NCBI RefSeq assembly: GCF_916700565.1
Contig: NZ_CAKAKO010000001.1
Coordinates: 744,001 to 808,000 of the forward strand
Source of the DNA: Xenophilus sp. Marseille-Q4582
Lineage (GTDB): Bacteria; Pseudomonadota; Gammaproteobacteria; Burkholderiales; Burkholderiaceae_C
DNA: 64,000 nucleotides
Direction of reading: 5' to 3'
In this document: in pieces, positions 38,615-53,962 of the stretch
Position numbering within the stretch: position 1 is the first letter of the stretch
Layout: each line of letters begins with the position of its first letter
The notes under the pieces: generated by a model
What the model was told of the DNA's origin: nothing
Database searches by the model: none
Seen by the model: the letters and a program-made list of their open reading frames with translations, nothing else
Position numbers and translations under genes: made by a program

Positions 38615-39814
38615 TCAGCCCCCGTCGCGGAACCAGTTGCCCGCCTCGACGCGGATGATCACCTTCTCGGGATCGAAGTTCACGCCGGCCGGGTCGCGCC
38701 CTTCCTGCACGGCCTTGATCTGCTGGCGCAGGCTGCGGCGCAGCATGCCCACGCCCTTGTCGCTGGTGGCCAGGTGCTCCTCGTTGTGGAAGGTGATGGG
38801 CCCCTGGCCCACCTGCGCTTCCCAGTCGCCGGGGTAGCGCTGCCGCTCCTCCTCGGTCATCTTCGACCACGGGCGCAGGTTGGGGCTGCGCGGCAGCGCG
38901 TTCTGGTCCTCGGGGATCTTCATCGCGAAGCACAGGCGGAAATGCGTGTCGTCCACCGGCACGACGAAGCCCACGCCCCCGGCCGCGCCGTGGCGCAGCT
39001 GCACGTTGGGCACCATGCGCACGTAGGGGAAGCTGGCGGCGGTGATGCGGTCCAGCTCGCGCCCGTCCTCGAGCTTGCGGTAGGCGGTGTAGCGGATGCC
39101 GTCCTCGGTGTACTCCCATTCCACCTCGGGCATCACGCCCATCTCCAGCACGAACTGCACGCCGCTGAAGGTGGTGTGCAGCACGGGGATGTGGAAGGGG
39201 TCCATCACGTTCTCCCATTCCTGCAGCCAGTTGCAGGGCACGATCTCCACGTCGTCGTCCCCGCCGGCGTAGAGGCTGGAGTGCGAGACATGCAGCTTCA
39301 GGCCGGGCTCGATGGTCTCCAGGATGTCCCAGCGCGGCAGCAGGGGCATGCGCTCGGGCGGGCCCATGTAGGCCCACAGAATGCCGTAGCGCTCCTGCAC
39401 CGGGTACCAGGGCTGGCGGATGCGCTCGCGGTTCGCGCCGCCGCCTTTCTCGCAGGGCTGGTCCAGGCAGCGGCCTTCGACGCTGAACAGCCAGCCGTGG
39501 TAGCAGCAGCGGATGCCCTCGGGCTCCACGCGGCCGTAGAACAGGTCGGTGCCACGGTGCGCGCAGCGGTTGTGCAGCAGGCCGGGGCGGCCGCTGCGGT
39601 CGCGGAAGACGATCAGGTCCTCGCCCAGGATGCGGATGCGCGCCGGCGTGGCGGTCACGCGCTCGGACAGCGTGACCGGGTGCCAGTAGCGGCGCATGAA
39701 TTCGCCGCAGGGCGTGCCGGGGCCGACCTCGGTCAAGAAGGCGTCGTGCCGGCCGGCCGGCCGGCCGTAGGCCACGCCGGTCAGGTCGGACGGAGGGGCG
39801 TCGTGGGATTGCAT
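38615..39814 (-). CDS. Rieske non-heme iron oxygenase, alpha subunit
   Basis: A 399-residue oxygenase of the phthalate-dioxygenase-like class. The Rieske [2Fe-2S] ligands are C84-A-H86 and C103-x2-H106 (NRCAHRGTD; RCCYHGWLFS). The mononuclear iron site is in NVMDPFHIPVLHTTF, with D205, H208 and H213, and N202 nearby. Such enzymes hydroxylate or demethylate aromatic or N-heterocyclic compounds and need a separate reductase; a VanB-type candidate is encoded at 47175. The gene diverges from the ABC receptor gene at 40060, and a RutR-like box lies 66 bases upstream of its start. Substrate unknown; pyrimidine-like ring is my inference. Confidence 0.92.
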   Translation of the reverse strand: MQSHDAPPSDLTGVAYGRPAGRHDAFLTEVGPGTPCGEFMRRYWHPVTLSERVTATPARIRILGEDLIVFRDRSGRPGLLHNRCAHRGTDLFYGRVEPEGIRCCYHGWLFSVEGRCLDQPCEKGGGANRERIRQPWYPVQERYGILWAYMGPPERMPLLPRWDILETIEPGLKLHVSHSSLYAGGDDDVEIVPCNWLQEWENVMDPFHIPVLHTTFSGVQFVLEMGVMPEVEWEYTEDGIRYTAYRKLEDGRELDRITAASFPYVRMVPNVQLRHGAAGGVGFVVPVDDTHFRLCFAMKIPEDQNALPRSPNLRPWSKMTEEERQRYPGDWEAQVGQGPITFHNEEHLATSDKGVGMLRRSLRQQIKAVQEGRDPAGVNFDPEKVIIRVEAGNWFRDGG

Positions 39815-39879
39815 GGGCGTCTCCTGCGGGGGCGCAACTGCAGGGCAGGGCGCGCCGCCCGGATCATGGGTGTTCTATT

Positions 39880-39895
39880 TTTACCAATCGGTCAG
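39880..39895 (-). promoter_or_regulatory. RutR-like operator 1
   Basis: TTTACCAATCGGTCAG matches the RutR consensus TTGACCAnnTGGTCAA at 11 of 14 specified positions. It lies 66 bases before the start of the divergent Rieske oxygenase gene. Confidence 0.6.
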
Positions 39896-39965
39896 AAATT
39901 ATCGAGGTTCGTCGCGTGGCGCTGCAAGGGCATAGGGAGGCTTTCGCCTCGGGGTTATCTCTGAT

Positions 39966-39981
39966 TTGACCGATTGGTTAA
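39966..39981 (+). promoter_or_regulatory. RutR-like operator 2
   Basis: TTGACCGATTGGTTAA matches the RutR consensus TTGACCAnnTGGTCAA at 12 of 14 specified positions and is a near-perfect palindrome. It lies 78 bases before the start of the ABC receptor gene at 40060. Confidence 0.65.
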
Positions 39982-40059
39982 ACATTGAAGAATCCAGGCG
40001 CCCCCTCCCGAATACAGCCGGTCCTGGCGCTCGTCCATGACCCTCGACAAGGAAAATCC

Positions 40060-41070
40060 ATGATGAATCTGCCGCGGCTCTCCCGCTGTGTGCGCCTGCT
40101 CGCCGCCTCCGCCCTGCTGGTGGGCGGCGTGGCCCAGGCGCAGGACAAGGTGACCTTCGCGACCAACTGGCGCGCGCAGGCCACGCACGGCGGCTTCTTC
40201 CAGGCGGTGGCGGACGGCACGTACAAGAAGTACGGGCTCGAGGTCGAGATCCAGCAGGGCGGCCCGCAGGTCAACAACCGCGCCATGCTGCCGGCCGGGC
40301 GCATCGACTTCCTGATGACGGGCGGCCTGCTCACCGCGCTGGAGAACACGCGCAGCAAGGTGCCCACCGTGATCGTCGCGGCCTATTTCCAGAAGGACCC
40401 GACGGCGCTGATCGCGCACAAGGGCGCCTACAAGAACTTCGCCGACCTGAAGAACGCCAAGACGGTGTTCATCGCCAAGAGCAACCAGTTCGGCTTCTGG
40501 CAGTGGCTCAAGGCCGAGCACGGCTTCAGCGACGAGCAGCTCAAGCCCTACACCTTCAACATCGGCCCCTTCATGGCCGACAAGAAGTCCGTGCAGCAGG
40601 CCTTCGCGACCTCCGAGGTGCTCTACGCGCGCGAGCAGGGCGCCGACGTGGACGTCTTCCTGCTGGCCGACCAGGGCTACAACACCTATGGCAACCTGAT
40701 CGAGACGCGCACGGACCTGGTCAAGAACAAGCCCGACCTGGTGCAGCGCTTCGTCGATGCATCCACCATCGGCTGGGTCAACTTCCTGCATGGCGATCCG
40801 AAGCCGGGCCTGGACCTGATCAAGAAGTTCAATCCCGATGTGAACGACGCCAAGCTGGCCGCCGAGCGCGAGCAGATGATCCAGCTGGACCTGGTCGATT
40901 CGGGCGATGCCAGGACCAAGGGCATCGGCGCCATCGACATGCCCCGCGTGCGCGACTTCGCCGCGCGCATGGTCAAGGCCGGCATCTACAAGCCGGGCGA
41001 GGTGGACGCCGACCTGGCCGTGACCGACCGCTTCGTCAACAAGGGCGTGGGCCTCAAGGGCGGCAAGTAA
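40060..41070 (+). CDS. NMT1/THI5-type ABC substrate-binding protein 1
   Basis: A 336-residue periplasmic receptor of the SsuA/THI5 (NMT1) family, which serves importers for nitrate, taurine, alkanesulfonates and thiamine-pyrimidine precursors. The signal peptide ends at VGGVAQA, and the mature protein begins QDKVTFATNWRAQATHGGFFQAVADGTYKKYG (in pieces), followed by IQQGGPQVNNRAMLPAGRIDFLMTGG. W-R-A-Q-x3-GGF is typical for the pyrimidine-type THI5 group. An AAGGAAAA ribosome binding site precedes ATG 40060. A close paralogue is encoded at 46099 in the same gene run; ATPase and permease follow at 42945 and 43771. Confidence 0.92.
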   Translation: MMNLPRLSRCVRLLAASALLVGGVAQAQDKVTFATNWRAQATHGGFFQAVADGTYKKYGLEVEIQQGGPQVNNRAMLPAGRIDFLMTGGLLTALENTRSKVPTVIVAAYFQKDPTALIAHKGAYKNFADLKNAKTVFIAKSNQFGFWQWLKAEHGFSDEQLKPYTFNIGPFMADKKSVQQAFATSEVLYAREQGADVDVFLLADQGYNTYGNLIETRTDLVKNKPDLVQRFVDASTIGWVNFLHGDPKPGLDLIKKFNPDVNDAKLAAEREQMIQLDLVDSGDARTKGIGAIDMPRVRDFAARMVKAGIYKPGEVDADLAVTDRFVNKGVGLKGGK

Positions 41071-41092
41071 AGGGCGGCCGGGGCACGGCGCG

Positions 41093-42751
41093 ATGTTCGC
41101 GAACGCCATCGCTGGTGTCTGCGCCGGCCGGCCGGCCGCGCGGCGCGTGGCGGCGGGCTTGCTGATGGCGCTGGGCCTGGGTGCGGCGCATGCGGCCGAG
41201 CCGCAGGCAACGCCCGCTGCCCCCGTCGTGCGGACGGCGCTGGGCGCGCTGCAGGGCGTGTCGCTCGAAGGGGGCCGTGTGGCCGCCTACCTGGGCGTGC
41301 CCTTCGCCCAGCCACCCGTGGGCGAAGGGCGCTTCGCGAAGGCTCGGCCCGCCGCCGCCTGGGCGCCGCAGACCCTGCAGGCCACTCGCTTCCAGCGCGC
41401 CTGCATGCAGCAAGGCCAGGTGCCGGCCGACATCGGCATGGGCGAAGACTGCCTGTACCTCAATCTCTATGTGCCGCAGGGCGCCGACCGCGCCGAGGCG
41501 ACGGGACCACGCGCTGCGCGGCCCGTGCTGGTCTTCCTGCACGGCGGCCGCTACTGGACCGGTCGTGCCTCCGAGAACGCCGTGCAGAAGCTGGCGGCCG
41601 AGGCCGACGCCATCGTCGTCACCGTCGCCTACCGCCTCAACGCCTTCGGCTTCCTGGCCGATGCCGAGCGCGCGCGCCGTGGCGACACCAACCTGGGCCT
41701 GCAGGACCAGCAGCTCGCGCTGCGCTGGCTGCAGCGCCACATCGGCGACTTCGGCGGTGACCCGCAGCGCGTGACGCTCTTCGGCGAAAGCGCCGGTGCC
41801 GGCAGCACGCTGCTGCAACTGCTGGACCCGGCCGCCGCGGGCCTGTTCCAGCGCGCGATCCTGCAGTCGACCTGGCAATGGCGCCTGCCCACGCTGGCGC
41901 AGGCCGCGGCGGGCACGCAGGCGCTGGCGCAGCGCCTGAACTGCCCCGCCAGCCCCAGCGCCGCGATGCTGGCCTGCCTGCGGCAGCTGCCGGCCGAGAA
42001 GATCACGCCCCCCTTGGCCGACAGCCACGCCTTCCAGCCCACCGTGGACGGGCAGCGCCTGCCGGCGCAGCCGCTGGCGCTGCTGGAGGCGGGGCGCTTT
42101 CACCGCCAGGTGCCGGTGCTCATCGGCCTGAACCGGGACGAGGGTCATTTCATGGCCATGTCGCGCACCGGCTGGAAGCGGCCGGACCAGCCCGTGGACG
42201 ACACCGCCTACCTGCGCGCCGCGCGCGACGCGCTCGGCCCCTTCTACGCGCCGGAACAGGTGGAAGACATCCTGTCCTGGTACGCGCCCCGGCGCACCGC
42301 GCAGGGCAACTGGCAGGCGCTGAGCGCGCTGCTCGGCGACTTCTACCTGAACTGCGGCAGCTACGCCGGCGCGCAGGCGCTCGCGGCCCACGGCCGCCGG
42401 CCCGTGCAGGCCTACTGGTTCACGCACGTGAGCCGCAACCACACCAAACCTTTCCTGGGCGCCGCCCATGGCGACGAGCTGGATTTGCTGTTCGCCGCGC
42501 CGGTCTACCCGCCCGGCTACGTGCTCACGCCCGAAGACCAGGCCCTGTCGCGCCGCATGATGCGGGCCTGGGGCCAGTTCGCGCGCACGGGGCGCGCGAG
42601 CGCATCGCCTGGCATCGCGCCCTGGCCCGCCTTCAGCGCTGCTTCGCCGCAGGCGCAGATCTGGTCCGAGCCGGGCCCGGGAGATGCCGCGCTCCACCGC
42701 TTCACCGATGCCAGCGGCACCTGCGCGCGCTGGCAGGCGCTGCTGCACTGA
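41093..42751 (+). CDS. Type-B carboxylesterase/lipase, exported
   Basis: A 552-residue alpha/beta hydrolase. A signal peptide runs to about residue 35 (GLLMALGLGAAHA). The oxyanion hole is HGG (150-152, FLHGGRYWTG), the nucleophile is S233 in FGESAGAGS, the acid is probably the Glu of GLNRDEGHF, and the His is in FLGAAHGDELDLLF. EDCLYLNLYVP is a family marker. It could hydrolyse an ester precursor of the compound imported by the adjacent ABC system in the periplasm. It starts 23 bases after the receptor gene, and its stop lies in the left end of MITE-like copy 2. Confidence 0.9.
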   Translation: MFANAIAGVCAGRPAARRVAAGLLMALGLGAAHAAEPQATPAAPVVRTALGALQGVSLEGGRVAAYLGVPFAQPPVGEGRFAKARPAAAWAPQTLQATRFQRACMQQGQVPADIGMGEDCLYLNLYVPQGADRAEATGPRAARPVLVFLHGGRYWTGRASENAVQKLAAEADAIVVTVAYRLNAFGFLADAERARRGDTNLGLQDQQLALRWLQRHIGDFGGDPQRVTLFGESAGAGSTLLQLLDPAAAGLFQRAILQSTWQWRLPTLAQAAAGTQALAQRLNCPASPSAAMLACLRQLPAEKITPPLADSHAFQPTVDGQRLPAQPLALLEAGRFHRQVPVLIGLNRDEGHFMAMSRTGWKRPDQPVDDTAYLRAARDALGPFYAPEQVEDILSWYAPRRTAQGNWQALSALLGDFYLNCGSYAGAQALAAHGRRPVQAYWFTHVSRNHTKPFLGAAHGDELDLLFAAPVYPPGYVLTPEDQALSRRMMRAWGQFARTGRASASPGIAPWPAFSAASPQAQIWSEPGPGDAALHRFTDASGTCARWQALLH

Positions 42752-42905
42752 GAAGAACCCCACATGCCCGCTCATCCCGCCCAGGTGCACGCCCTCATCG
42801 TTGCAAATGCTCGCCATAGCCCGAGCTATGGCTGCGCTTTGCGCCTCGATGGCGCACCCCTGGACGGTCTGCTCGGCCACGCGGGATTCATTCACACCTT
42901 CTGAG
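42748..42905. repeat. MITE-like repeat, copy 2
   Basis: Same element as 16769-16947. The left end CTGAGAAG lacks 9 bases (GTGTGAACG) present in copy 1; the right end reads TTCATTCACACCTTCTGAG. The interior hairpin is perfect: GCCATAGC (42813-42820), loop CCGA, GCTATGGC (42825-42832). It lies between the esterase and ATPase genes and carries the esterase stop codon. Confidence 0.85.
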
Positions 42906-42944
42906 CGCCTTCTTCTTTCTCTGTTTGTCCCACGCTTGCCCGCC

Positions 42945-43757
42945 ATGTCCACGACCCTGTCGCCCCCCGCCGCCGCGTCATCGCCGCCCCTGTTCCAGAT
43001 GCGCAACGTGTCCAAGCGCTTCCCGAACGGCACGCTGGCGCTGGAAGGCATGTCGCTGGACTGCGGCGACCACGAGTTCATCAGCTTCCTGGGCCCCTCG
43101 GGCTGCGGCAAGAGCACGGCGCTGCGCCTGGTGGCCGGCCTCACGCGCATCAGCAGCGGCACGCTCGACTGGCCGCAGCGCCCGCCGCCGGCGGCCGGCC
43201 AGCGCGCGCTGGGCTTCGTGTTCCAGGAGCCCACGCTGATGCCCTGGGCCAAGGTCTTCGACAACGTCTGGCTGCCGCTCAAGCTGGCCGGCGTGAGCCG
43301 CGACGCCGCCGCGCCCGTGATCCAGCAGGTGCTGGAGATGGTGGGCCTGTCGCGCTTCGCCGACGTGTACCCGCGCGAGCTCTCGGGCGGCATGAAGATG
43401 CGCGTGTCCATCGCCCGCGCGCTGGTCACGCAGCCGCGCCTGCTGCTGATGGACGAGCCCTTCGCCGCGCTCGACGAGATGACGCGCATCAAGCTCAACA
43501 ACGACCTGCTGGCCATCTGGCGCGAGCACCGCTTCTCGGTGATCTTCGTCACCCACAGCGTCTACGAGTCGGTCTACCTGTCCAGTCGCATCGTCGTGAT
43601 GGCCGCGCGCCCGGGCCGCGTGATCGAGCAGATCGTGGTGGACGAGCCCTATCCGCGCGGCGAGGAATTCCGCACCTCCAGCCGCTACAACCAGCACTGC
43701 ATGGCTGTGCAGCAATCGCTGCACGGCGCGCTGGGCGGCCAGGACATCGACCACTGA
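42945..43757 (+). CDS. ABC transporter ATPase (SsuB/TauB type)
   Basis: A 270-residue ABC ATPase that powers the importer with receptors at 40060 and 46099 and the permease at 43771. The Walker A motif is GPSGCGKST (50-58), the signature is LSGGMKMRVSIARAL, Walker B is LLLMDEPFAALDE, and the switch His is in FVTHSVYES. The overall sequence is that of nitrate/sulfonate/taurine-type ATPases. It begins 40 bases after MITE-like copy 2, so the repeat sits inside what is otherwise a continuous gene run. Confidence 0.95.
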   Translation: MSTTLSPPAAASSPPLFQMRNVSKRFPNGTLALEGMSLDCGDHEFISFLGPSGCGKSTALRLVAGLTRISSGTLDWPQRPPPAAGQRALGFVFQEPTLMPWAKVFDNVWLPLKLAGVSRDAAAPVIQQVLEMVGLSRFADVYPRELSGGMKMRVSIARALVTQPRLLLMDEPFAALDEMTRIKLNNDLLAIWREHRFSVIFVTHSVYESVYLSSRIVVMAARPGRVIEQIVVDEPYPRGEEFRTSSRYNQHCMAVQQSLHGALGGQDIDH

Positions 43758-43770
43758 GCGGGCCGTCATC

Positions 43771-44592
43771 ATGAGCAACCTCGACGCCCACCAACGCAAG
43801 ATGCGCAGCCGCGAGACCACGGCGCGCATCGTCATCCCTGCCCTCATCATCGGCGCCCTGCTCATCGGCTGGGAGCTGCTGGTGCGGCTGCAGGAGATTC
43901 CGCACTACATCCTGCCCGCGCCCTCGCTGATCTGGCGCACGCTGGTCGACAACTGGGCCACGCTGTGGCCCGCGCTGTGGTTCACCATCAAGCTCACCCT
44001 GCTGGCGCTGATCGCCGCCATCGTGGGCGGCGTGCTGCTGGCCATCGCCTTCGCGCTGTTCCGCTGGGTGGAGATCGGCTTCTTCCCCATCGCCGTGGTG
44101 CTGCAGGTCACGCCCATCGTGGCCATCGCGCCGCTGATCCTGATCTATGTGTCCAACACCACGGCCGCGCTGCTGCTGTGCGCCTGGCTGGTGGCCTTCT
44201 TCCCCATCCTGTCGAACACGGTGATCGGGCTCAAGAGCGCGGACAGCAACCTGCGCGACCTGTTCCAGCTCTACGAGGCTTCGCCCTGGCAACGCTTTCG
44301 CTACCTGCTGGTGCCCAGCGCCACGCCCTACTTCATGGCGGGCCTGAAGATCGCCGGCGGCCTGGCGCTGATCGGCGCGGTGGTGGCCGAGTTCACGGCC
44401 GGCACGGCGGGCCGCGAAACCGGGCTGGCTTCGCGCATCCTCGAATCGAGCTTCCGCACCGAGATCCCGATGATGTTCGCGGCCCTGTTCCTGGTGTCCA
44501 TCCTGGGCGTGGTGATCTTCCTGGTGTTCGCGGTGCTCTCCAAGATGGTGCTGGGCCACTGGCACGAGAGCGAGATGCGGCGCGAGGGCTGA
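43771..44592 (+). CDS. ABC transporter permease (SsuC/TauC type)
   Basis: A 273-residue inner-membrane permease with about six helices. The EAA loop that docks the ATPase is seen as LFQLYEASPWQRFRYLLVPSATPYFMAGLKIAGGLALIGAVVAEF (in pieces; A-S-x5-F-x4-L-P-S-A-x-P). It is encoded 13 bases after the ATPase gene and 3 bases before the FAD oxidoreductase gene, indicating one operon. Substrate is set by the NMT1/THI5-type receptors. Confidence 0.95.
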   Translation: MSNLDAHQRKMRSRETTARIVIPALIIGALLIGWELLVRLQEIPHYILPAPSLIWRTLVDNWATLWPALWFTIKLTLLALIAAIVGGVLLAIAFALFRWVEIGFFPIAVVLQVTPIVAIAPLILIYVSNTTAALLLCAWLVAFFPILSNTVIGLKSADSNLRDLFQLYEASPWQRFRYLLVPSATPYFMAGLKIAGGLALIGAVVAEFTAGTAGRETGLASRILESSFRTEIPMMFAALFLVSILGVVIFLVFAVLSKMVLGHWHESEMRREG

Positions 44593-44595
44593 GCC

Positions 44596-46044
44596 ATGAA
44601 CGAGCAAGTCATTGATTCCGCCGCGGCGGGTGCCGCCATTCCCGCCATGCCGCCCACCGGCCATGCCGGCTTCGCGCATCCGCTGGCGCATGTGGACTGG
44701 GCCCAGGTGCAGGCCGAGCTGCAGGGCCTGGACGTCATCACGCGGCTGCCGCAGCGCCGGCAGCTGTCGAAGGACTTCTTCTGGTACAGCCCGGTGCTCT
44801 CGCAGTACCTGGCCGACTGCGTGGCCGACCTGGTCGTGCGCGTGGGCACCGAGGAGGACGTGCGCCAGGTGGCGCAGGTCGTGGCGCGGCACCGGCTGCC
44901 GCTCACGGTGCGCGCGGGCGGCACCGGCAACTACGGCCAGTGCGTGCCGCTCAACGGCGGCATCGTGATGGACGTGAGCGGTTTGGCGCGCGTGCTCGAC
45001 ATTCAGCCCGGCCGCGTGCGCGCCCAGGCCGGCGCGCGCATGTACGACATCGAGATGGCCGCGCGCGAAACGGGGCAGGGCCTGCGCATGTGGCCCTCGA
45101 CCTGGCATGTCGCCTCCATCGGCGGTTTCATTTCGGGCGGCTTCGGCGGCATCGGCTCGATGCGCAACGGCATCCTGCGCGACCCCGGCAACATGCTGCG
45201 CGCGCGCGTGATGACGGTTGAAAAGGAGCCGCGCATCATCGAGCTGGTGGGCGACGAGATCCAGCAGGTGCAGCACGCCTTCGGCACCAACGGCGTGATC
45301 CTGGACGTGGAAGTGGCGCTGAACCCGCACGTGGAATGGCTGCACACCACCGTGCTCTTCCCCACCTACCGCGGCGCGCTGGACTTCGGCTGCGCGGGCA
45401 GCACGCCCGATCTGGACCTGTTCCTGCTCTCCACCGTGGAGGCGCGCTTTGCGCCCTACTACACGAGCATGGGCGACAAGTTCCCGCCGGACCGTCATGC
45501 GGTGTTCACCATGGTGGCGCCCGGGTCGATGCCGGCGCTGCGGGAACTGGCCGCGCGCATGGGCGGCGAGATCTCGGTCTGCGGCACCGAGCAGGAATTG
45601 ATCGATGCTGGCCTGCCGCCGGCCTACGAGTGCGCCTACAACCACACCACGCTGCAGGCGCTGAAGGTGGACCGCAGCTGGACCTACCTGCAGGTGGCTT
45701 ATGCGCAACCCTTCGACCCGGCCGTGGTGCAGCGGCACCTGGACATCTTTGGCGACGACGTGCTGCAGCACCAGGACTTCGCGCGCGCCGGGGGCGAGTT
45801 CGGCACCTTCGGTATCCTGCTGGTGCGCTGGAAAGGCATCGAGCACCAGTACGAAGTGATCCGCGAGATCGAATCGCAGGGCGGCTGCCAGATCTTCAAC
45901 CCGCATGTGGTGACCATCGAAGAAGGCGGCATGAAGGCGATCGACGACCAGCAGATCGAATTCAAGAAGCGCAGCGACCCGATGGGCCTGATGAACCCGG
46001 GTAAGACGCGCGGCTGGCGGCCCGAGATGGCGCGCCTCGATTGA
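44596..46044 (+). CDS. FAD-binding oxidoreductase (PCMH/GlcD type)
   Basis: A 482-residue flavoprotein with an FAD-binding type 4 (PCMH) domain at about residues 65-240. The diphosphate-binding region is LTVRAGGTGNYGQCVPLNGGIVMDVSGL, followed by VRAQAGARMYDIEMAARETGQGLRMWPST and GGFISGGFGGIGSMRNGI (in pieces). GlcD, VAO and related enzymes of this fold oxidise hydroxy acids, alcohols or amines. It is coupled to the ABC permease gene and may oxidise a product of the Rieske oxygenase. No specific substrate can be given. Confidence 0.88.
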   Translation: MNEQVIDSAAAGAAIPAMPPTGHAGFAHPLAHVDWAQVQAELQGLDVITRLPQRRQLSKDFFWYSPVLSQYLADCVADLVVRVGTEEDVRQVAQVVARHRLPLTVRAGGTGNYGQCVPLNGGIVMDVSGLARVLDIQPGRVRAQAGARMYDIEMAARETGQGLRMWPSTWHVASIGGFISGGFGGIGSMRNGILRDPGNMLRARVMTVEKEPRIIELVGDEIQQVQHAFGTNGVILDVEVALNPHVEWLHTTVLFPTYRGALDFGCAGSTPDLDLFLLSTVEARFAPYYTSMGDKFPPDRHAVFTMVAPGSMPALRELAARMGGEISVCGTEQELIDAGLPPAYECAYNHTTLQALKVDRSWTYLQVAYAQPFDPAVVQRHLDIFGDDVLQHQDFARAGGEFGTFGILLVRWKGIEHQYEVIREIESQGGCQIFNPHVVTIEEGGMKAIDDQQIEFKKRSDPMGLMNPGKTRGWRPEMARLD

Positions 46045-46098
46045 GAGAGGAACCTCCTCTTTTTCTGTTTCCTCACCCCTTGATCAACTGGAGTGGAC

Positions 46099-47118
46099 AT
46101 GAGCAAGAAGCTGTTTCTGGGCCTGGGCATCGGTGTTGCCATGGCCGCGCTCGCGGGCCTCGCGTCGGCGCAGGACAAGGTGACTTTCGCCACCAACTGG
46201 CGGGCGCAGCCGGGCCACGGCGGCTTCTACCAGGCGCTGGCCGACGGCACCTACAAGAAGTACGGGCTGGACGTCACCATCCAGCAGGGCGGCCCGCAGG
46301 TCAACAACCGGCCCATGCTGCCGGCCGGCCGCGTGGACTTCCTCATGAGCGGCAACCTGCTGCTGCCCTTCGACAACCTGAAGGCCGGCGTGCCCACGGT
46401 GGTGGTGGCGGCCTACTTCCAGAAAGACCCGCAGATCCTGATCGCGCATCCGGGGCAGGGCTACGAGAAGTTCTCCGACCTGACCAAGGCACCGACCATC
46501 CTGATGGCCAAGGACGGCCAGATCAGCTACTTCCAGTGGATGAAGAAGGCGCACGGCTTCCGCGACGAGCAGGTGCGGCCCTACAACTTCAGCCTGTCGC
46601 AGTTCCTGGCCGACAAGAAGGCGGTGCAGCAGGGCTACGCGACCTCGGAGCCGATCTCGGTCGAGGCGCAGGCCGGCTTCAAGCCGCTGAGCTTCTCGCT
46701 GGCCGATGCGGGCTGGTCCACCTACGGCATGCTGATCGAGACCCGCAAGGACCTGGTGGAAAAGAAGCCCGAGGTCGTTCGCCGCTTCATCGAGGCCAGC
46801 AACATCGGCTGGTACAACTACCTGTACGGCGACCGCTCGGCGGCCGACAAGCTGATCCGCGAGGCCAACCCCGACATCACGCCCGAGTACACGGCCAAGT
46901 CCATCCCCATCCTGCGCGAGCACATCGACAGCGGCGATGCGCTCACCCAGGGCATCGGCGCACTCAATGCCGAGCGCATCAAGGACTTCCACAGGAAGAC
47001 CGTGGACGCCGGCCTGTTCACGGCCGGCCAGATCAACCCCGAGGCGAGCTTCACGACGCAGTTCGTCAACAAGGGCGCCGGCCTGGACCTGCGCAAGCAG
47101 CTGACCGGCGGCAAGTGA
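46099..47118 (+). CDS. NMT1/THI5-type ABC substrate-binding protein 2
   Basis: A 339-residue paralogue of the receptor at 40060. The signal peptide MSKKLFLGLGIGVAMAALAGLASA is followed by QDKVTFATNWRAQPGHGGFYQALADG and IQQGGPQVNNRPMLPAGRVDFLMSG. The body is conserved with receptor 1 in the pocket regions but diverges elsewhere. ATG 46099 follows a GGAG 6 bases upstream; a GTG six bases earlier is less likely. Two receptors for one ATPase/permease pair suggest two related ligands. Confidence 0.92.
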   Translation: MSKKLFLGLGIGVAMAALAGLASAQDKVTFATNWRAQPGHGGFYQALADGTYKKYGLDVTIQQGGPQVNNRPMLPAGRVDFLMSGNLLLPFDNLKAGVPTVVVAAYFQKDPQILIAHPGQGYEKFSDLTKAPTILMAKDGQISYFQWMKKAHGFRDEQVRPYNFSLSQFLADKKAVQQGYATSEPISVEAQAGFKPLSFSLADAGWSTYGMLIETRKDLVEKKPEVVRRFIEASNIGWYNYLYGDRSAADKLIREANPDITPEYTAKSIPILREHIDSGDALTQGIGALNAERIKDFHRKTVDAGLFTAGQINPEASFTTQFVNKGAGLDLRKQLTGGK

Positions 47119-47174
47119 AAGAGTGAGAGTGACGCAGGGCCCGCGCCCTGCGATGACGTAGCGGTGAAGAGCCC

Positions 47175-48140
47175 ATGACCCAGACGCGCATCCTGACCCT
47201 GCGCGTCTCGCGCCTCACGCGCGAGACGCCCGAAATCCTCGGCGTGGAGCTGACCCACCCCTGGGGCCGCGCGCTGCCGGCCTACGAAGCCGGCGCGCAC
47301 ATCGACCTGCACCTGCCGGGGGGCTTTTCGCGCCAGTACTCGCTGGCACAGGCGCCGCACGTGGCGGGCAATCGCTATGTGATCGGCGTCAAGCGCGAGA
47401 GCGCGAGCCGCGGCGGCTCGGCCTCCGTGCACGGCCGCCTGCGCGAAGGCGACCTGCTGCCCGTGGGCGAGCCGCGCAACACCTTCGCGCTGGCCGAAGG
47501 CGCGGCGCATCACCTGCTGCTGGCAGGCGGCATCGGCATGACGCCGCTGCTGGCCATGGCCCAGACCCTGGCCGCGCGCGGCGAGCGCTTCACGCTGTGC
47601 GTGTTCGCGCGCAGTCCCGAGCACCTGGCCTTCGCCGGATCGCTGCGCGACAGCGCGCTGGCGCCGCATGTGCGCCTGCATTTCGACGAGGGCGGCACGC
47701 CCGCGCAGAAACTGTCGCTGCCCGAACTGCTGGCCGCGCCCGCCCCGGGCACGCACCTGTACCTGTGCGGTCCGGCCGGCTTCATGCAGGCCGTGCGCGA
47801 CGCGGCCAAGGGCTGGCCGGAAGACAACATCCATGCCGAGTACTTCGCCGCGCCCGACGGTGGGGTGGCCACCTCCGGCAAGCCTTTCATGCTGAACCTG
47901 CTGCAGCGGGGCATCCGCGTGCCGGTGGCGGGCGAGCAGACGGCCGTGGAGGCGTTGCACGACGTGGGCATCGACATTCCTGTGTCCTGCCAGCAGGGCC
48001 TGTGCGGCACCTGCGTGGTGCCGGCAGAAGGCGAAACGGCCGAGCACCGCGATTTCTGCCTGAGCGGCAGCGAGCGCCGGCACAAGGTGGCGCTGTGCTG
48101 CTCGCGCGCGCGGGGCGAGGAGCTGGCCCTTCACATCTAG
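47175..48140 (+). CDS. VanB/PDR-type reductase (FNR + 2Fe-2S)
   Basis: A 321-residue reductase in the phthalate-dioxygenase-reductase class. The N-terminal flavin domain (about 1-105) has HIDLHLPGGFSRQYSLAQ, the NAD(P) domain (about 110-230) has LLLAGGIGMTPLLAMAQ, and the C-terminal plant-type [2Fe-2S] ferredoxin (about 235-321) has C272, C277, C280 in CQQGLCGTC and C308 in VALCCSRARG. It would pass electrons from NAD(P)H to the Rieske oxygenase encoded at 38615. This supports a complete two-component oxygenase in the locus. Confidence 0.93.
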   Translation: MTQTRILTLRVSRLTRETPEILGVELTHPWGRALPAYEAGAHIDLHLPGGFSRQYSLAQAPHVAGNRYVIGVKRESASRGGSASVHGRLREGDLLPVGEPRNTFALAEGAAHHLLLAGGIGMTPLLAMAQTLAARGERFTLCVFARSPEHLAFAGSLRDSALAPHVRLHFDEGGTPAQKLSLPELLAAPAPGTHLYLCGPAGFMQAVRDAAKGWPEDNIHAEYFAAPDGGVATSGKPFMLNLLQRGIRVPVAGEQTAVEALHDVGIDIPVSCQQGLCGTCVVPAEGETAEHRDFCLSGSERRHKVALCCSRARGEELALHI

Positions 48141-48227
48141 CATGCCGGGGCTGCGGCGCCGCGGCCTTCCTTCGCCTTCCTCCTTCTTCTCCCGCCTGTT
48201 GTTCTTCCGCCTTCCGACCCACCCCGC

Positions 48228-48950
48228 ATGACCCGCGCGAAGCGCCCACCCGCCGCCGAGGAGGCTGCGCCCTCCAGCCCCGCATTGGCCGCCGAGGCGC
48301 AGCCATCGCAGCGCGGCCGCGCGCGCAAGTACGCGCTGGTGATGGAGCAGATCCACGCGGCGGCCATCGAGGTCTTCGCGGCCGAAGGCGCGGCAGGCGC
48401 GACCACGCAGGCCATCGCCGACCGCGCCGGCCTGTCGAAGGCGCAGCTGCACTACTACATCGACACCAAGGACGCGCTGTACCGCGAGGTGCTGCAGAAC
48501 ATCCTCGACGACTGGGTCGCGGTCTTCGGCTACGAGGACGAGGCCCAGGGCCCGCGCAAGGTGCTGGGCGACTACATCCGGCGCAAGATGAACTTCTCCT
48601 TCGAGGAGCCGCTGCGCTCGCGCATCTTCGCGGCCGAGATGATGCGCGGCGGACCGGTGGCGCTCGCGCTCATGGGCGGCAACAGCGGCCGGCGCACCTG
48701 GCAGGCCGATTCGGTGATCCGCCACTGGATCCAGCGCGGGCTCATGGCGCCGGTGGAGCCGCTGCTCTTTCTGTTCCACCTCTGGGCCATCACCCAGTTC
48801 TATGCCGACCAGGCGCAGCAGGTGCACCTGTTCATGCCCGGCGAGCTGGACAGCGCCGAGGGCCGCGAGCGGCTGATCCAGGAAGTGACGCTGCAGATCT
48901 TCCGCGCCGCGGGCCTGGAGCCGGCCGTGCCGGTCCGCGCGCCGGACTGA
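48228..48950 (+). CDS. TetR-family regulator, RutR-like
   Basis: A 240-residue regulator. The helix-turn-helix lies at about 36-82 (AAIEVFAAEGAAGATTQAIADRAGLSKAQLHYYIDTKDALY in pieces). The C-terminal part resembles RutR/YcdC: LYREVLQNILDDW, GDYIRRKMNFSFEEPLRSRIFAAEMMRG and LFLFHLWAITQFYADQAQQV. E. coli RutR binds uracil and thymine and represses pyrimidine catabolism. Three RutR-like boxes in the locus (39880, 39966, 51506) are likely its operators. A long Ala/Pro-rich N-terminal extension of about 30 residues precedes the HTH. Confidence 0.88.
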   Translation: MTRAKRPPAAEEAAPSSPALAAEAQPSQRGRARKYALVMEQIHAAAIEVFAAEGAAGATTQAIADRAGLSKAQLHYYIDTKDALYREVLQNILDDWVAVFGYEDEAQGPRKVLGDYIRRKMNFSFEEPLRSRIFAAEMMRGGPVALALMGGNSGRRTWQADSVIRHWIQRGLMAPVEPLLFLFHLWAITQFYADQAQQVHLFMPGELDSAEGRERLIQEVTLQIFRAAGLEPAVPVRAPD

Positions 48951-48977
48951 ACCCCGCTGCGGTCCCGGCCGCCGCCT

Positions 48978-49436
48978 TCAGCGCTGCGGCAGGTACATCG
49001 TGGCCTCGACCTCGACCAGCACCTCGTCGCCGGGCAGGAAGCGCGACACCTCCACCACTGTGCTCACGGGCGGCTCGCCGGGGTAGAACAGGCCGCGCAC
49101 GCGGTTGTAGGGCGCGTAGTCGCGCAGGTGGCGGAAGTACTGCACCAGCTTGAACACGTCGTCCATCGTGCCGCCATGGGCGGCGGCCAGTTCGCGGATG
49201 CGCTCGAGCACGCACCAGCTCTGCGCCACGATGGCCGACTCGAACACGTCGACCGACATCTGGCCCGTGGCATAGCCCAGGCCCTGGAGGGCGCTGCGGG
49301 CGTGTTCGGGCAGCTCGTCGTAGTGGCGCACGGCGCTGCGGGTGGCCGGGTTGGTGGCGACCACGCCGCTCATGAAGACGAAATCGCCCACGCGTTTCGC
49401 GGCGGCGTAGCGGGCCATGGGGGCGCCGGTGCTCAT
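48978..49436 (-). CDS. RidA-family (YjgF/RutC-like) protein
   Basis: A 152-residue RidA family protein. Segments FVFMSGVVATNPATRSAVRHYDEL, ATGQMSVDVFESAIVAQSWCVLERIRELAAAHGGTMDDVFKLVQYFRHL (in pieces) and RGLFYPGEPPVSTVVEVSRFLPGDEVLVEVEATMYLP give the trimeric barrel; the Arg and Glu of the active site are R114-like (NRVRGLF) and in LVEVEATMY. Members hydrolyse enamines/imines; RutC removes ammonia from 3-aminoacrylate in pyrimidine degradation. ATG 49436 overlaps the preceding amidohydrolase stop by 4 bases, so it is the last gene of a three-gene minus-strand operon. Confidence 0.9.
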   Translation of the reverse strand: MSTGAPMARYAAAKRVGDFVFMSGVVATNPATRSAVRHYDELPEHARSALQGLGYATGQMSVDVFESAIVAQSWCVLERIRELAAAHGGTMDDVFKLVQYFRHLRDYAPYNRVRGLFYPGEPPVSTVVEVSRFLPGDEVLVEVEATMYLPQR

Positions 49437-50626
49437 GGGTGCATCTCCTCCAGCAGGCGCCCGGCACGGATCACCCGGCGCGCGCGGCCACGCGGGCCGA
49501 TCAGTTCGTATTCGTGGCGGGCCTGCAGCCACAGCAGGTCGGCCGGCGCGCCTTCGTGCAGGCGGCCGTCCCAGTCCAGGCCCAGCGCTTGCGCGGGGCC
49601 CATGGTGACGGTGTCGATCCAGTCCAGCGCCGGCGCCAGGTGCGCGGCCTGCACGCCCAGCGCGAAGGTGTCGAGCAGGTCGTAGCCGCCGTAGGGGTAG
49701 AAGGCGTCCTGCACGTTGTCGGTGGCCAGGCTCAGGCCCAGGCCCGCGGCGCGCGCCTCGTGAAGGCGCGTGAGGCCGCGCTGCACCGGCGTGCGGTCCC
49801 AGGCGCCCTGCAGGTATAGGTTGGTGCTGGGCAGCGCGATCAGGTGCAGGCCGGCACGTGCGCAGAGCGCGAGCGTCTCCAGCGCTTCGTCGTCGGGCTG
49901 CACCGAGAGCGAGCAGGCATGGCCGCAGACCACGCGGCCCTGCAGGCCATGCTCCAGCGTCAGTTCGGCGATCTGCCGCAGGCCGCGCGCTTCCACGTCC
50001 AGGCCTTCGTCCACGTGGAAGTCCAGCCGCAGCCCGTGCTGCACGGCCAGCGCGAAGACGCGCCGCAGCTTGGGCGCCAGATCGGCATTGCGGTACACGA
50101 AGGCGCCCAGCACCCCCTGGGCGCGCTGCACCTCGCGCGCGATGCGCGCGCCCGCGTCCTCGTCGGCGTACACATCCAGCGGCGTGAGCGCGACGAACTG
50201 CAGCTCGATGCGGCCCCGCCAGGCGTCGCGCAGCGCTTCCAGCACGGCCAGCGAGGCGGGCGCCTCGGGCCGGCCCCAGTCCAGGTGCGTGCGCAGCGCG
50301 CGCGTGCCGAAACGCCAGGCTTCCTGCAGCGCACGCTCCATGCGTGGCTGCAGGGTGGCACCGTTCCAGCTTGCGCGGTGCACTTCCATGCGGCGGATGG
50401 CGCTGAACAGGTCGCCCTGTGCGCCGCCCGTCTCTTCGACTGTGTAGTTCTTGTCGATGTGCGCATGCGCCTCGACCGGCGCGCTCAGCAGCAGGCCCCG
50501 CGCGGCTTCGGCGCTGGGGCGGATGGATGCGATGCGGCCGTCCTGCAGTCGGAGGTCGAAAACCTGGTCCGCGCCCGCGTCAAAGCCGCGCAGCACGCGC
50601 GGAATGTGCAGCGCCTTCAGTTCCAT
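49433..50626 (-). CDS. Cytosine-deaminase-like amidohydrolase
   Basis: A 397-residue metal-dependent amidohydrolase of the CodA/N-isopropylammelide group. Metal-site motifs are VEAHAHIDKNYTVEE (H-x-H), HVDEGLD, CGHACSL and ATDNVQDAFYPYG (Asp); E in the HVDE is the usual acid-base. Length is near that of CodA (427). Likely reactions are deamination or ring hydrolysis of a pyrimidine-like or triazine-like substrate. It lies 31 bases after the creatininase-family gene and overlaps RidA by 4 bases, so the three enzymes form one operon with a RutR-like box at its front. Confidence 0.9.
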   Translation of the reverse strand: MELKALHIPRVLRGFDAGADQVFDLRLQDGRIASIRPSAEAARGLLLSAPVEAHAHIDKNYTVEETGGAQGDLFSAIRRMEVHRASWNGATLQPRMERALQEAWRFGTRALRTHLDWGRPEAPASLAVLEALRDAWRGRIELQFVALTPLDVYADEDAGARIAREVQRAQGVLGAFVYRNADLAPKLRRVFALAVQHGLRLDFHVDEGLDVEARGLRQIAELTLEHGLQGRVVCGHACSLSVQPDDEALETLALCARAGLHLIALPSTNLYLQGAWDRTPVQRGLTRLHEARAAGLGLSLATDNVQDAFYPYGGYDLLDTFALGVQAAHLAPALDWIDTVTMGPAQALGLDWDGRLHEGAPADLLWLQARHEYELIGPRGRARRVIRAGRLLEEMHP

Positions 50627-50657
50627 GCGCGGGCCCTCTGGCGCTGGAAGCACACGC

Positions 50658-51470
50658 TCATTTCCACGCGGGCTCGTTGGCCAGGCGCGCGAGCGGGAAG
50701 CGGTCCACCTCCTGCAGCAGCTGCACGAAGCGGCGGCCCACATGGTCGAGCACAGCGGCCCCCTTGTCGGCGCTGGCGCGCGAGGCATCGCCGGCCGCGC
50801 CCCAGGGGTTGATGTCGTGCATCTGCCAGCCCAGCTTGCCACTGGGCGTGATCGACAGGAACTGGTTCTCGGCCGCGAGCTGCTGCGTCATCGACGGGAA
50901 GTTGCGCAGCTGGTCGCGCTGCACGTCGTCGGGCGTCACGTGCATCATGATCGAGGACTCCAGGTCGCCCGCATGGATGCCGTGGCGGCCCTCCTCCTCG
51001 GTGAACAGGCCGCTCGGCAGGCCCAGCGTGTACCAGTTGGCCGCCACCACCATCATCTGCTGCTGCTCGCGCAGGTCGCGCGCCACGATGTCCATGGGCG
51101 CCATCTGGCCGCCATGGCTGTTGTAGAGCACCAGCTTGCGCACGCCCGCGCGGGCCACGCAGGCGCCAATCTCCATCCACAGCGCGATCAGCGTGCTGGC
51201 CGACACCGTGAGCGTGCCCGGGTAGCGCGAATGCTCGTTGCTCTTGCCGTAGGGCACGGTGGGCAGGAAGAGCACAGGCAGGTCGTCGGGCAGATGCGGC
51301 AGGCTGGCCTGCACCATGGCGTCGATGGTGGCCGTGTCGGTGGACATGGGCAGGTGCGGGCCGTGCTGCTCGGTGGCGCCGACGGGCAGCACGGCGATGA
51401 GGCGTTCCCGGTCGAGCCGCGAGAACTCCTCGCTCGTCAGGTCGGACCAGTAGCGTGTGCGCAGTTTCAT
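50658..51470 (-). CDS. Creatininase-family amidohydrolase
   Basis: A 270-residue member of the creatininase (creatinine amidohydrolase) family, which opens cyclic amides or hydrolyses amide bonds with two metals. The metal ligands and active-site segments are LPVGATEQHGPHLPMSTDT (E34, H36, D45), NEHSRYPGTLTVS, YNSHGGQMAPMDI and GIHAGDLESSIMMH. Length and motifs are typical. Substrate is unknown: creatinine, a formamide (as ArfB) or a ring amide are all possible. It starts the minus-strand operon creatininase-amidohydrolase-RidA, 36 bases downstream of RutR-like operator 3. Confidence 0.9.
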   Translation of the reverse strand: MKLRTRYWSDLTSEEFSRLDRERLIAVLPVGATEQHGPHLPMSTDTATIDAMVQASLPHLPDDLPVLFLPTVPYGKSNEHSRYPGTLTVSASTLIALWMEIGACVARAGVRKLVLYNSHGGQMAPMDIVARDLREQQQMMVVAANWYTLGLPSGLFTEEEGRHGIHAGDLESSIMMHVTPDDVQRDQLRNFPSMTQQLAAENQFLSITPSGKLGWQMHDINPWGAAGDASRASADKGAAVLDHVGRRFVQLLQEVDRFPLARLANEPAWK

Positions 51471-51505
51471 GGGGAACAGGGCCTTGGGGTGGGGACGGTC
51501 TAAAT

Positions 51506-51521
51506 TTATCCAAACGGTCAA
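51506..51521 (-). promoter_or_regulatory. RutR-like operator 3
   Basis: TTATCCAAACGGTCAA matches the RutR consensus TTGACCAnnTGGTCAA at 11 of 14 positions, with a perfect right half. It lies 36 bases before the creatininase-family start, overlapping a TAAATTTAT stretch in GC-rich DNA that probably includes the promoter. Confidence 0.6.
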
Positions 51522-53011: not shown

Positions 53012-53962
53012 ATGCCAGCCCTTCCCGTCCCAGCTTCCTGTCCGGCGCCCGCCTCGCTCGACGCGATGGTTGAGCCGTGGATGGCGCCCTTCTACGGCCC
53101 GGCCCTGCGCACGCTGCACGAGGCCGGCGTGCCCTTCGTGCTCGGCGGCACCTTCGCGCTGGCCTACCTCACGGGCATTTGCCGCGCCACGGCGGACCTG
53201 GACCTGTTCATCCGCCGCACCGATTTCGATCGCATCGCGCAGCTGCTGCACGAACGGCAAGGCTGGCGCTGCATGCTGACGCACCCCCACTGGCTGGCCA
53301 AGGTGCATGGCTCGGACCAGGACGGCGACGGCGCGGCCTTCATTGACCTGATTTTCAATTCCGGCAACGGCCTCGCGCCCGTGGACGAGGACTGGTTCCG
53401 CGGCAATGGCCAGGCGCAGTTGCTGGGCGTGCCGGTGCGCGTGATGAAGGCCGAGGACGCGCTCATGTCCAAGGCCTTCATCATGGAGCGCGAGCGCTAC
53501 GACGGCGGCGACGTCGCGCATCTGCTGCAGGCCTGCGCCGAGCGGATGGACTGGGAGCGCGTGCTCGCGCGCTTCGGCCCGCACTGGCGCGTGCTGCTCG
53601 CGCACCTGACCCTGTTCGGCTACATCTACCCCGGCGAGCGGCACCATGTGCCGGGCTGGGTGATGGCGCAGCTGCTGGGCCGGCTGCACGAGGAGCAGGG
53701 CGCGCCGCCGCGCGCCGACATGGCAGTGTGCGCCGGCACGCTGCTGTCGCGCGAACAGTACCTGCATGACGTTTCCCAGGGTTATGTGGACGCCCGCCTG
53801 GCCTCCACCAGCACCATGACGGCGGACGACGTCCAGGCCTGGACGCAGGCCATCGGGGACAGGAAGGCCGCCGAGCCGCCGGTGCCGCCCGCCGGCGCGC
53901 CCCCCGCGCCGCAGGTGGCGCGGCTGCTGCTGGCGGACCGCCCGACAGGCCGGGGCGCGTGA
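53012..53962 (+). CDS. Nucleotidyltransferase-fold protein
   Basis: A 316-residue protein with a minimal nucleotidyltransferase core. G45-G46 in FVLGGTFALAYL and D62-x-D64 in TADLDLFIRR match the GG/S ... DhD active-site pattern, and a third acid is likely in AFIDLIFNSG (about residue 108). VRVMKAEDALMSKAFIMERERYDGGDVAHLL follows, as in MNT/AbiEii-like nucleotidyltransferases where a second acidic helix packs on the core. A Pro-rich tail ends the protein. Target (RNA, protein or small molecule) is unknown. Its partner candidate is the divergent metallophosphoesterase. Confidence 0.8.
   Translation: MPALPVPASCPAPASLDAMVEPWMAPFYGPALRTLHEAGVPFVLGGTFALAYLTGICRATADLDLFIRRTDFDRIAQLLHERQGWRCMLTHPHWLAKVHGSDQDGDGAAFIDLIFNSGNGLAPVDEDWFRGNGQAQLLGVPVRVMKAEDALMSKAFIMERERYDGGDVAHLLQACAERMDWERVLARFGPHWRVLLAHLTLFGYIYPGERHHVPGWVMAQLLGRLHEEQGAPPRADMAVCAGTLLSREQYLHDVSQGYVDARLASTSTMTADDVQAWTQAIGDRKAAEPPVPPAGAPPAPQVARLLLADRPTGRGA

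Follow-up and report, generated by a model that had tools for sequence, protein, structure and literature searches.

A probable pteridine catabolic operon joined by a PobA-type Rieske oxygenase module in Xenophilus sp. Marseille-Q4582

The window analyzed here is a stretch of 64,000 nucleotides (contig NZ_CAKAKO010000001.1, positions 744,001 to 808,000) from the genome assembly GCF_916700565.1 of Xenophilus sp. Marseille-Q4582, which comprises 5.54 Mb in 13 contigs. A locus of 12 genes lies at positions 38615 to 51521 of the window. Genes were typed by open reading frame (ORF) calling and by scans with Pfam and NCBIfam models, and several start codons were then re-set. The initial annotation had described one contiguous locus for the catabolism of a pyrimidine or a pyrimidine-like N-heterocycle, dependent on a Rieske oxygenase. 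All gene types that it named are present. Nine of the 12 genes constitute a core, which encodes a creatininase-family hydrolase, an NMT1-type ATP-binding cassette (ABC) importer, an amidohydrolase, a flavin adenine dinucleotide (FAD) enzyme, a reductase, a RutR-like TetR regulator, and a RidA protein. The other three constitute the Rieske module.

The layout of the genes gives three transcription units. The Rieske gene (38615..39814) stands alone on the minus strand. It encodes an oxygenase alpha subunit of the PobA/3-phenoxybenzoate dioxygenase type, with the cluster ligands C84, H86, C103, and H106 and with D205, H208, and H213. The second unit is divergent from it, on the plus strand. It begins with two genes of the Rieske module, the NMT1/THI5-type receptor SBP1 (40060..41070; PF09084, E 2.9e-22) and a type-B carboxylesterase (41093..42751; PF00135, E 4.8e-115), which is apparently exported, as its N-terminus looks signal-like by eye. 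The core genes follow: the ABC transporter ATPase (42945..43757, start re-set; PF00005), the permease (43771..44592; PF00528), the FAD enzyme with the FAD_binding_4 domain (44596..46044), the second NMT1/THI5-type receptor SBP2 (46099..47118; PF09084, E 2.7e-21), an FNR-type reductase with a C-terminal 2Fe-2S (Fer2) domain (47175..48140; PF00111 and PF00175), and the TetR regulator with a YcdC/RutR-type C-terminal domain (48228..48950; PF08362, E 4.3e-29). SBP1 and SBP2 are 55% identical to each other. The third unit, on the minus strand and convergent with the second, contains the genes for the creatininase-family hydrolase (50658..51470; PF02633, E 3.1e-71), the amidohydrolase (49433..50626; PF01979), and RidA (48978..49436; PF01042, E 2.8e-14). 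The last two share 4 overlapping bases. The amidohydrolase, a putative pterin deaminase, is 70% identical to its orthologue in V. boronicumulans, and RidA is 84% identical in the Variovorax core. A pattern scan found RutR-type operator matches ahead of the Rieske gene (TTTACCAATCGGTCAG, 39880..39895), ahead of the SBP1 gene (TTGACCGATTGGTTAA, 39966..39981), and 35 bp ahead of the start codon of the creatininase-family gene (TTATCCAAACGGTCAA, 51506..51521). The final base of the last match is the end of the locus.

Several proteins fall below the model cut-offs for the better-known members of their families. The TetR protein scored 134.2 bits against the RutR model TIGR03613 (cut-off 368) and is RutR-like, not RutR. 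RidA scored 41 bits against the RutC model (cut-off 169.1) and is not RutC. The creatininase-family protein contains the PF02633 domain, but it is not a creatininase proper (TIGR04448, 88.9 vs. 235), and its score is also below the cut-off of the mycofactocin MftE model (123.7 vs. 172). The amidohydrolase, called cytosine-deaminase-like in the initial annotation, missed both cytosine deaminase cut-offs (PRK07583, 342 vs. 403; PRK07572, 156 vs. 438). In HMMER alignments to 1k6w and relatives, a Pro residue occupies the position of Gln156, the substrate-binding glutamine of the cytosine deaminase CodA. The Pfam scan of the locus gave no hit to a RutA-type (luciferase-like) family.

Three clues point to pteridines as the substrates of the core. 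One is the kinship of the FAD enzyme. Its nearest relative with a solved structure is 6v42, whose title describes a flavin oxygenase "involved in folate catabolism". The FAD enzyme matches the 6v42 family over its full length in both sequence and fold, well above other families. The second is the kinship of the amidohydrolase. The residues for metal binding and catalysis (HxH, HxxE, H, and D) are conserved in all 12 aligned sequences. The protein is 397 aa long in the window and 398 aa long in V. boronicumulans, with the RidA gene overlapping or following. The pterin deaminase (PDA) of Variovorax sp. F1 deaminates folate and pteroate, is about 399 aa long, and has a RidA ("endoribonuclease") gene directly downstream (PMC9513972). 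Clade, length, and the RidA neighbor thus suggest that the amidohydrolase is an orthologue of F1 PDA. The third is a 2paj-like deaminase carried by two relatives; 2paj presumably functions in a way that fits pteridines.

The core operon is widespread. In Variovorax and Diaphorobacter it is preserved, and plasmids carry varied versions of it; in neither setting does this Rieske gene lie next to it. One set of 200 family genomes, drawn by the tool and taken as identical across searches, contained matches to the FAD enzyme (E<=1e-60) in 28 genomes, to the amidohydrolase in 24, and to both in 22 (Fisher p 9e-22, uncorrected for kinship). Twenty core loci of up to 20 kb were compared by tblastn and ORF clustering. 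Their recurrent set consists of the creatininase-family hydrolase, ATPase, permease, amidohydrolase, FAD enzyme, receptor, RutR-like TetR, and RidA, often joined by the reductase or a flavodoxin-like oxidoreductase. The members vary by locus, and L132 yielded no more than the FAD gene together with a distant ATPase. Three loci with FAD enzymes 76-77% identical to that of the window (L120 to L122) have all nine core genes and no relative of the window Rieske. Judged by the amidohydrolase (E<=1e-120), the core is present in 75 of 100 Variovorax-genus genomes, which were likewise drawn by the tool.

Much the same gene row is seen on plasmids of Mameliella, Leisingera, Roseateles, Nitratireductor, Alloyangia, Salipiger, and Pseudosulfitobacter, and more distant versions are seen on plasmids of Agrobacterium, Rhizobium, and Comamonadaceae. 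Nine plasmid records encode proteins over 50% identical to the FAD enzyme, and eight of them (all except H6) were examined with an incomplete gene table. All eight contain the creatininase-family, permease, amidohydrolase, FAD, receptor, and TetR genes. The ATPase gene is found in seven (not in L181), as is the RidA gene (not in L146). No gene named Rieske was found within 9 kb in any of the eight, as far as this incomplete table goes.

Core-type genes also occur in other settings. The genome of the window has three core-type FAD genes, as a pair of additional ones is present in another locus (L119, contig C7:1-20000), accompanied there by amidohydrolase, creatininase-family, ABC, RutR-like, and RidA genes. 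A paralogous core-type FAD gene is present in 15 of 15 same-genus genomes. In genome G115, a cytochrome P450 gene (L123:12348-14090) is located near a set of creatininase-family, FAD, RidA, and reductase genes, and its product may be a further partner of that reductase. Upstream of the pterin deaminase gene of V. boronicumulans, genes for xylose-isomerase-like, four-carbon-acid kinase-like, PdxA-like, and TctC proteins stand in a row (L157:9899-14833). A second, unrelated Rieske protein of the VanA_C type is encoded beside core-type genes in two genomes, G064 (L129:545-1588) and G101 (L130:3-953). These two proteins are 72% identical to each other, and their closest solved structures are SxtT/SxtDIOX and methylxanthine N-demethylases. 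The presence of a Rieske gene beside core-type operons in two forms fits an optional oxygenase step.

The role of the Rieske enzyme is the interesting part of the locus. The enzyme is 52.1% identical over 386 residues (96% of its length) to Sca, a tested 3-phenoxybenzoate-degrading enzyme. The nearest solved structures by fold are phthalate and isophthalate dioxygenases, among them an unassigned Rieske oxygenase from Cupriavidus. Residue R256 is invariant in 39 aligned sequences, as are the C-H/C-H and 2-His mononuclear-iron residues, and it lines up with Arg of 7fhr and 9ina. Arginines of phthalate dioxygenase have carboxylate-binding roles. Sca is 96.33% identical to PobA, whose splitting of phenoxybenzoate takes place at positions 3 and 4 of the ring that bears the carboxyl group (PMC11026547). 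The substrate of the window Rieske is thus likely to be an aromatic carboxylate, and the Rieske attack on a pyrimidine proposed in the initial annotation is not upheld by its closest tested relatives, which act on plain aromatic acids.

The reductase that the initial annotation paired with the Rieske enzyme is present, but it belongs to the core. It is encoded ~7 kb away from the Rieske gene and is 39% identical to Scb. No PobB-type cognate reductase adjoins the Rieske gene. The core reductase is kept in five core loci (L120, L121, L122, L156, and L157) with no relative of the window Rieske in the stretch examined, and we therefore reject it as the original partner of the Rieske enzyme. Its first partner was presumably another enzyme, perhaps the FAD oxygenase. 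Among 82 Rieske loci, the top gene clusters after the Rieske itself were found in 29, 19, 15, and 13 loci; no common pathway neighbor stood out, and most clusters are unannotated. Two Rieske relatives from Hydrogenophaga (L028 and L030) were considered as SadA, the 4-aminobenzenesulfonate dioxygenase whose sad operon lists glutamine synthetase (PMC5632844). This assignment is doubtful; the seven neighbors scanned encode NAPRTase, DctM, TctC, and AMP-ligase proteins, and no glutamine synthetase was among them. As for genes of 3-phenoxybenzoate dioxygenases elsewhere, one in Sphingobium (L171:7068-15653) is bordered by IS6100 copies, and a Rhodococcus plasmid (L172) has two copies of a 99.5% identical gene, near IS1071.

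The operator-type sites connect the Rieske gene with the core. With TTGACCANNTGGTCAA, presumably the consensus of the E. coli RutR operator, and up to 3 mismatches, 8 matches were found in the window against 0.73 expected, and none of 100 shuffles reached 8. The matches at 39880, 39966, and 51506 have 2-3 mismatches and are located at the promoters of the Rieske and SBP1 genes and of the creatininase-family gene. With TTGACCnnnnGGTCAA and up to 2 mismatches, five matches were found in the window, three of which are these promoter sites; simulations (n=60) gave a mean of 0.83 and a maximum of 4. Paired sites between the Rieske and SBP1 genes, 86-89 bp apart, are also present in L167, L009, and L010, and a perfect site is present ahead of the Rieske gene in L160. 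Sites upstream of the Rieske gene were found in 4 of 4 loci with at least 77% identity, vs. 2 of 78 loci with at most 67% identity (both with 2 mismatches), and in 48 of 4000 random 270-bp stretches. Sites ahead of the creatininase-family gene are present in six of the seven closest core loci, the window included (L122 has none). The operator scan left out the core-type loci L129, L130, and L132.

The complete locus is also conserved in another genome. In G204, of the same genus, the 12 genes are all present and their order is that of the window, with 75-94% identity, which argues for more than a chance cluster. The full locus is present in two of 15 same-genus genomes, including that of the window. 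Beyond the Rieske gene, the nearest called gene is an Mfd-type helicase gene in G204 and a CYTH-CHAD gene in the window. On the other side, just beyond the locus, an uncharacterized nucleotidyltransferase-family gene is located at 53012-53962 (PF14907, above the cut-off). The conserved order, together with the RutR-type operators at both the Rieske and creatininase-family genes, indicates that the Rieske gene belongs with the core here.

We consider it probable (about 0.7) that the locus is a pteridine catabolic island, for a breakdown product of folate, extended by a PobA-type Rieske module, with an aromatic-acid dioxygenase recruited into the same regulon. Gene content, conservation, kinship, and operator-like sites are computed results, and every substrate, reaction, and regulatory effect given here for this organism is inferred. 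This replaces the pyrimidine interpretation, of which a catabolic locus with a RutR-like regulator and RutR-type operators survives, probably for an N-heterocycle with a fused pyrimidine ring, as in pterins; a pyrimidine route proper does not survive. In this organism, the NMT1-type ABC system would import a pterin. The amidohydrolase would take off the 2-amino group, as shown for the Variovorax sp. F1 enzyme and extended here by orthology. Oxygenation or oxidation of the pteridine or of its side chain would fall to the FAD enzyme, and hydrolysis of ring-amide and imine products to the creatininase-family enzyme and RidA; the reductase would supply electrons to an oxygenase. The RutR-like TetR may be a repressor that acts at TTGACCnnnnGGTCAA-type sites and lets go of them in response to a pterin-like ligand. 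The added module of Rieske, SBP1, and exported esterase may serve the uptake and dioxygenation of a benzoate with a substituent at position 4, for which the p-aminobenzoyl half of folate is the most plausible candidate.

Several observations weigh against this interpretation. The FAD enzyme is only ~41% identical to 6v42, known by its title alone, and the ligand may differ. The likeness of the amidohydrolase to F1 PDA, Vapar5141, and Arad3529 was judged from the figures and identity values of the paper, not from direct alignment. The substrates of Sca and PobA are diaryl ethers, not pterins. Among the other TTGACCANNTGGTCAA matches in the window, one (49150) is inside the RidA gene and four are outside the locus. 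Of the 35 core loci scanned, only 12 have a site close to the start of a core operon or to the TetR gene, and the two other core-type copies in the same genome have no RutR-type sites. The closest core operons are without this Rieske, and a close Rieske (E<=1e-180) is present in only two of the same 100 Variovorax-genus genomes that were used for the core count. The gene set is thus largely split in relatives, although G204 keeps the 12-gene order. As the core usually occurs without this Rieske, it does not need it.

It is possible, though clearly less probable, that the Rieske module has a separate function in the use of an unrelated aromatic acid, such as a 4-substituted benzoate released from an ester by the exported esterase, and shares only the type of regulator with the pterin operon beside it. 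In two named Variovorax strains (L156/L157 genomes), the Rieske module has its own reductase and RutR-like TetR and lies ~150 kb away from the core, on the same contig; here, G200/G214 and G201/G298 were taken as the same two genomes, given their matching contig numbers and positions. The action of Sca and PobA on phenoxybenzoates and the phthalate-type fold favor the same view. However, in these Variovorax modules, where SBP1 is 81-83% identical to that of the window, neither the core ATPase nor the core permease has a match within 10 kb of SBP1, and SBP1 of the window resembles the SBP2 of the core. The order retained in G204 and the operator type common to the module and the core also argue against independent function. 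So does the finding that core genes occur in each of the five genomes with a close Rieske that were examined (G000, G204, G132, G200, and G201).

The substrate of the core could instead be another fused or N-rich heterocycle, such as an 8-oxopurine or a flavin or thiamine fragment. The core enzymes would then merely resemble those for folate, and paralogous cores would act on different compounds. The three core-type FAD genes in one genome and the modest identity to 6v42 are consistent with this, and NMT1/THI5 receptors take their name from proteins of thiamine-pyrimidine synthesis. It is unlikely, since a tested folate or pterin enzyme and one named as such in the title of its structure, which represent separate clades of this operon family, agree with each other. 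That the Rieske enzyme starts a fourth type of route, with uracil, thymine, or a different plain pyrimidine as the substrate, is very improbable. Of the findings that the initial annotation had listed as refuting it, two largely apply, namely a gene set that is divided in relatives and a characterized Rieske homologue with a plain aromatic substrate. The RutR-like regulator, the RutR-type operators, RidA, and the CodA-like amidohydrolase would fit such a route, but the missed cut-offs, the absence of the CodA glutamine, the lack of a RutA-type hit, the PobA-like Rieske, and the conservation of the core without it do not.

Within the pteridine interpretation, a more specific role of the Rieske enzyme can be proposed, although we regard it as rather speculative and the odds as against it. 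Pteroate, or 4-(pterinylmethyl-amino)benzoate, is the nitrogen analogue of 4-phenoxybenzoate, with NH-CH2-pterin replacing O-phenyl. This likeness, the 3,4-cleavage by PobA, and the shared operator type suggest that the Rieske enzyme could be a dioxygenase of pteroate or deaminopteroate that cuts the aryl-N bond. If the carboxylated ring underwent angular 3,4-dioxygenation, the product would be an unstable hemiaminal, decaying to protocatechuate and 6-aminomethylpterin (or -lumazine). Protocatechuate would enter protocatechuate cleavage, for which the two LigA-family genes of the genome are a possible sink, and the released amine would be oxidized by the FAD enzyme and hydrolyzed with RidA. 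In a close variant, the Rieske enzyme would convert free p-aminobenzoate into protocatechuate and ammonia. As a side observation, three places in the same genome (C2:812840, C6:15555, and C8:118666) encode the intradiol dioxygenase domain PF00775 with equal scores and in frames of equal length, and these may be copies of one triplicated gene.

Folate is made by many organisms. Whether and how bacteria degrade pteroate and deaminopteroate is a question left by the discussion of PMC9513972, which the proposed pteroate dioxygenase, if true, would answer. The locus gives candidate genes for the later steps of import, oxygenation, ring opening, and regulation. They form a widespread, partly plasmid-borne operon, and the Rieske enzyme is one testable candidate for cutting the link between pterin and benzoate. 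Searches of the open-licence PMC literature turned up neither an account of this operon nor one of a Rieske enzyme acting in folate breakdown.

Among known systems, the folate route of Variovorax sp. F1 with pterin deaminase and carboxypeptidase G, also from Comamonadaceae, shares the probably orthologous amidohydrolase. Unlike the window locus, it is followed to deaminopteroate, with no operon, FAD enzyme, or Rieske described in the parts of PMC9513972 drawn on here. The flavin oxygenase 6v42/6v43 belongs to a different clade from the FAD enzyme of the window, and the two Rhizobium/Agrobacterium operons examined (L169 and L147) encode LysR instead of TetR and an NAD(P)H-dependent oxidoreductase instead of the FNR reductase. 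PobAB/Sca (PMC11026547) resembles the window locus in the Rieske alpha subunit and in the reductase type, FNR with C-terminal 2Fe-2S. In the window, however, the reductase is that of the core, and the setting is a pterin-type operon, not a xenobiotic module flanked by insertion sequences. The phthalate and isophthalate dioxygenases 7fjl and 9ina are only ~28-29% identical to the window Rieske. The Rut pathway (RutABCDEFG and RutR) has in common with the locus the kind of regulator (here RutR-like), RutR-type operators, and a RidA protein, but the hydrolases and the importer of the window are different ones.

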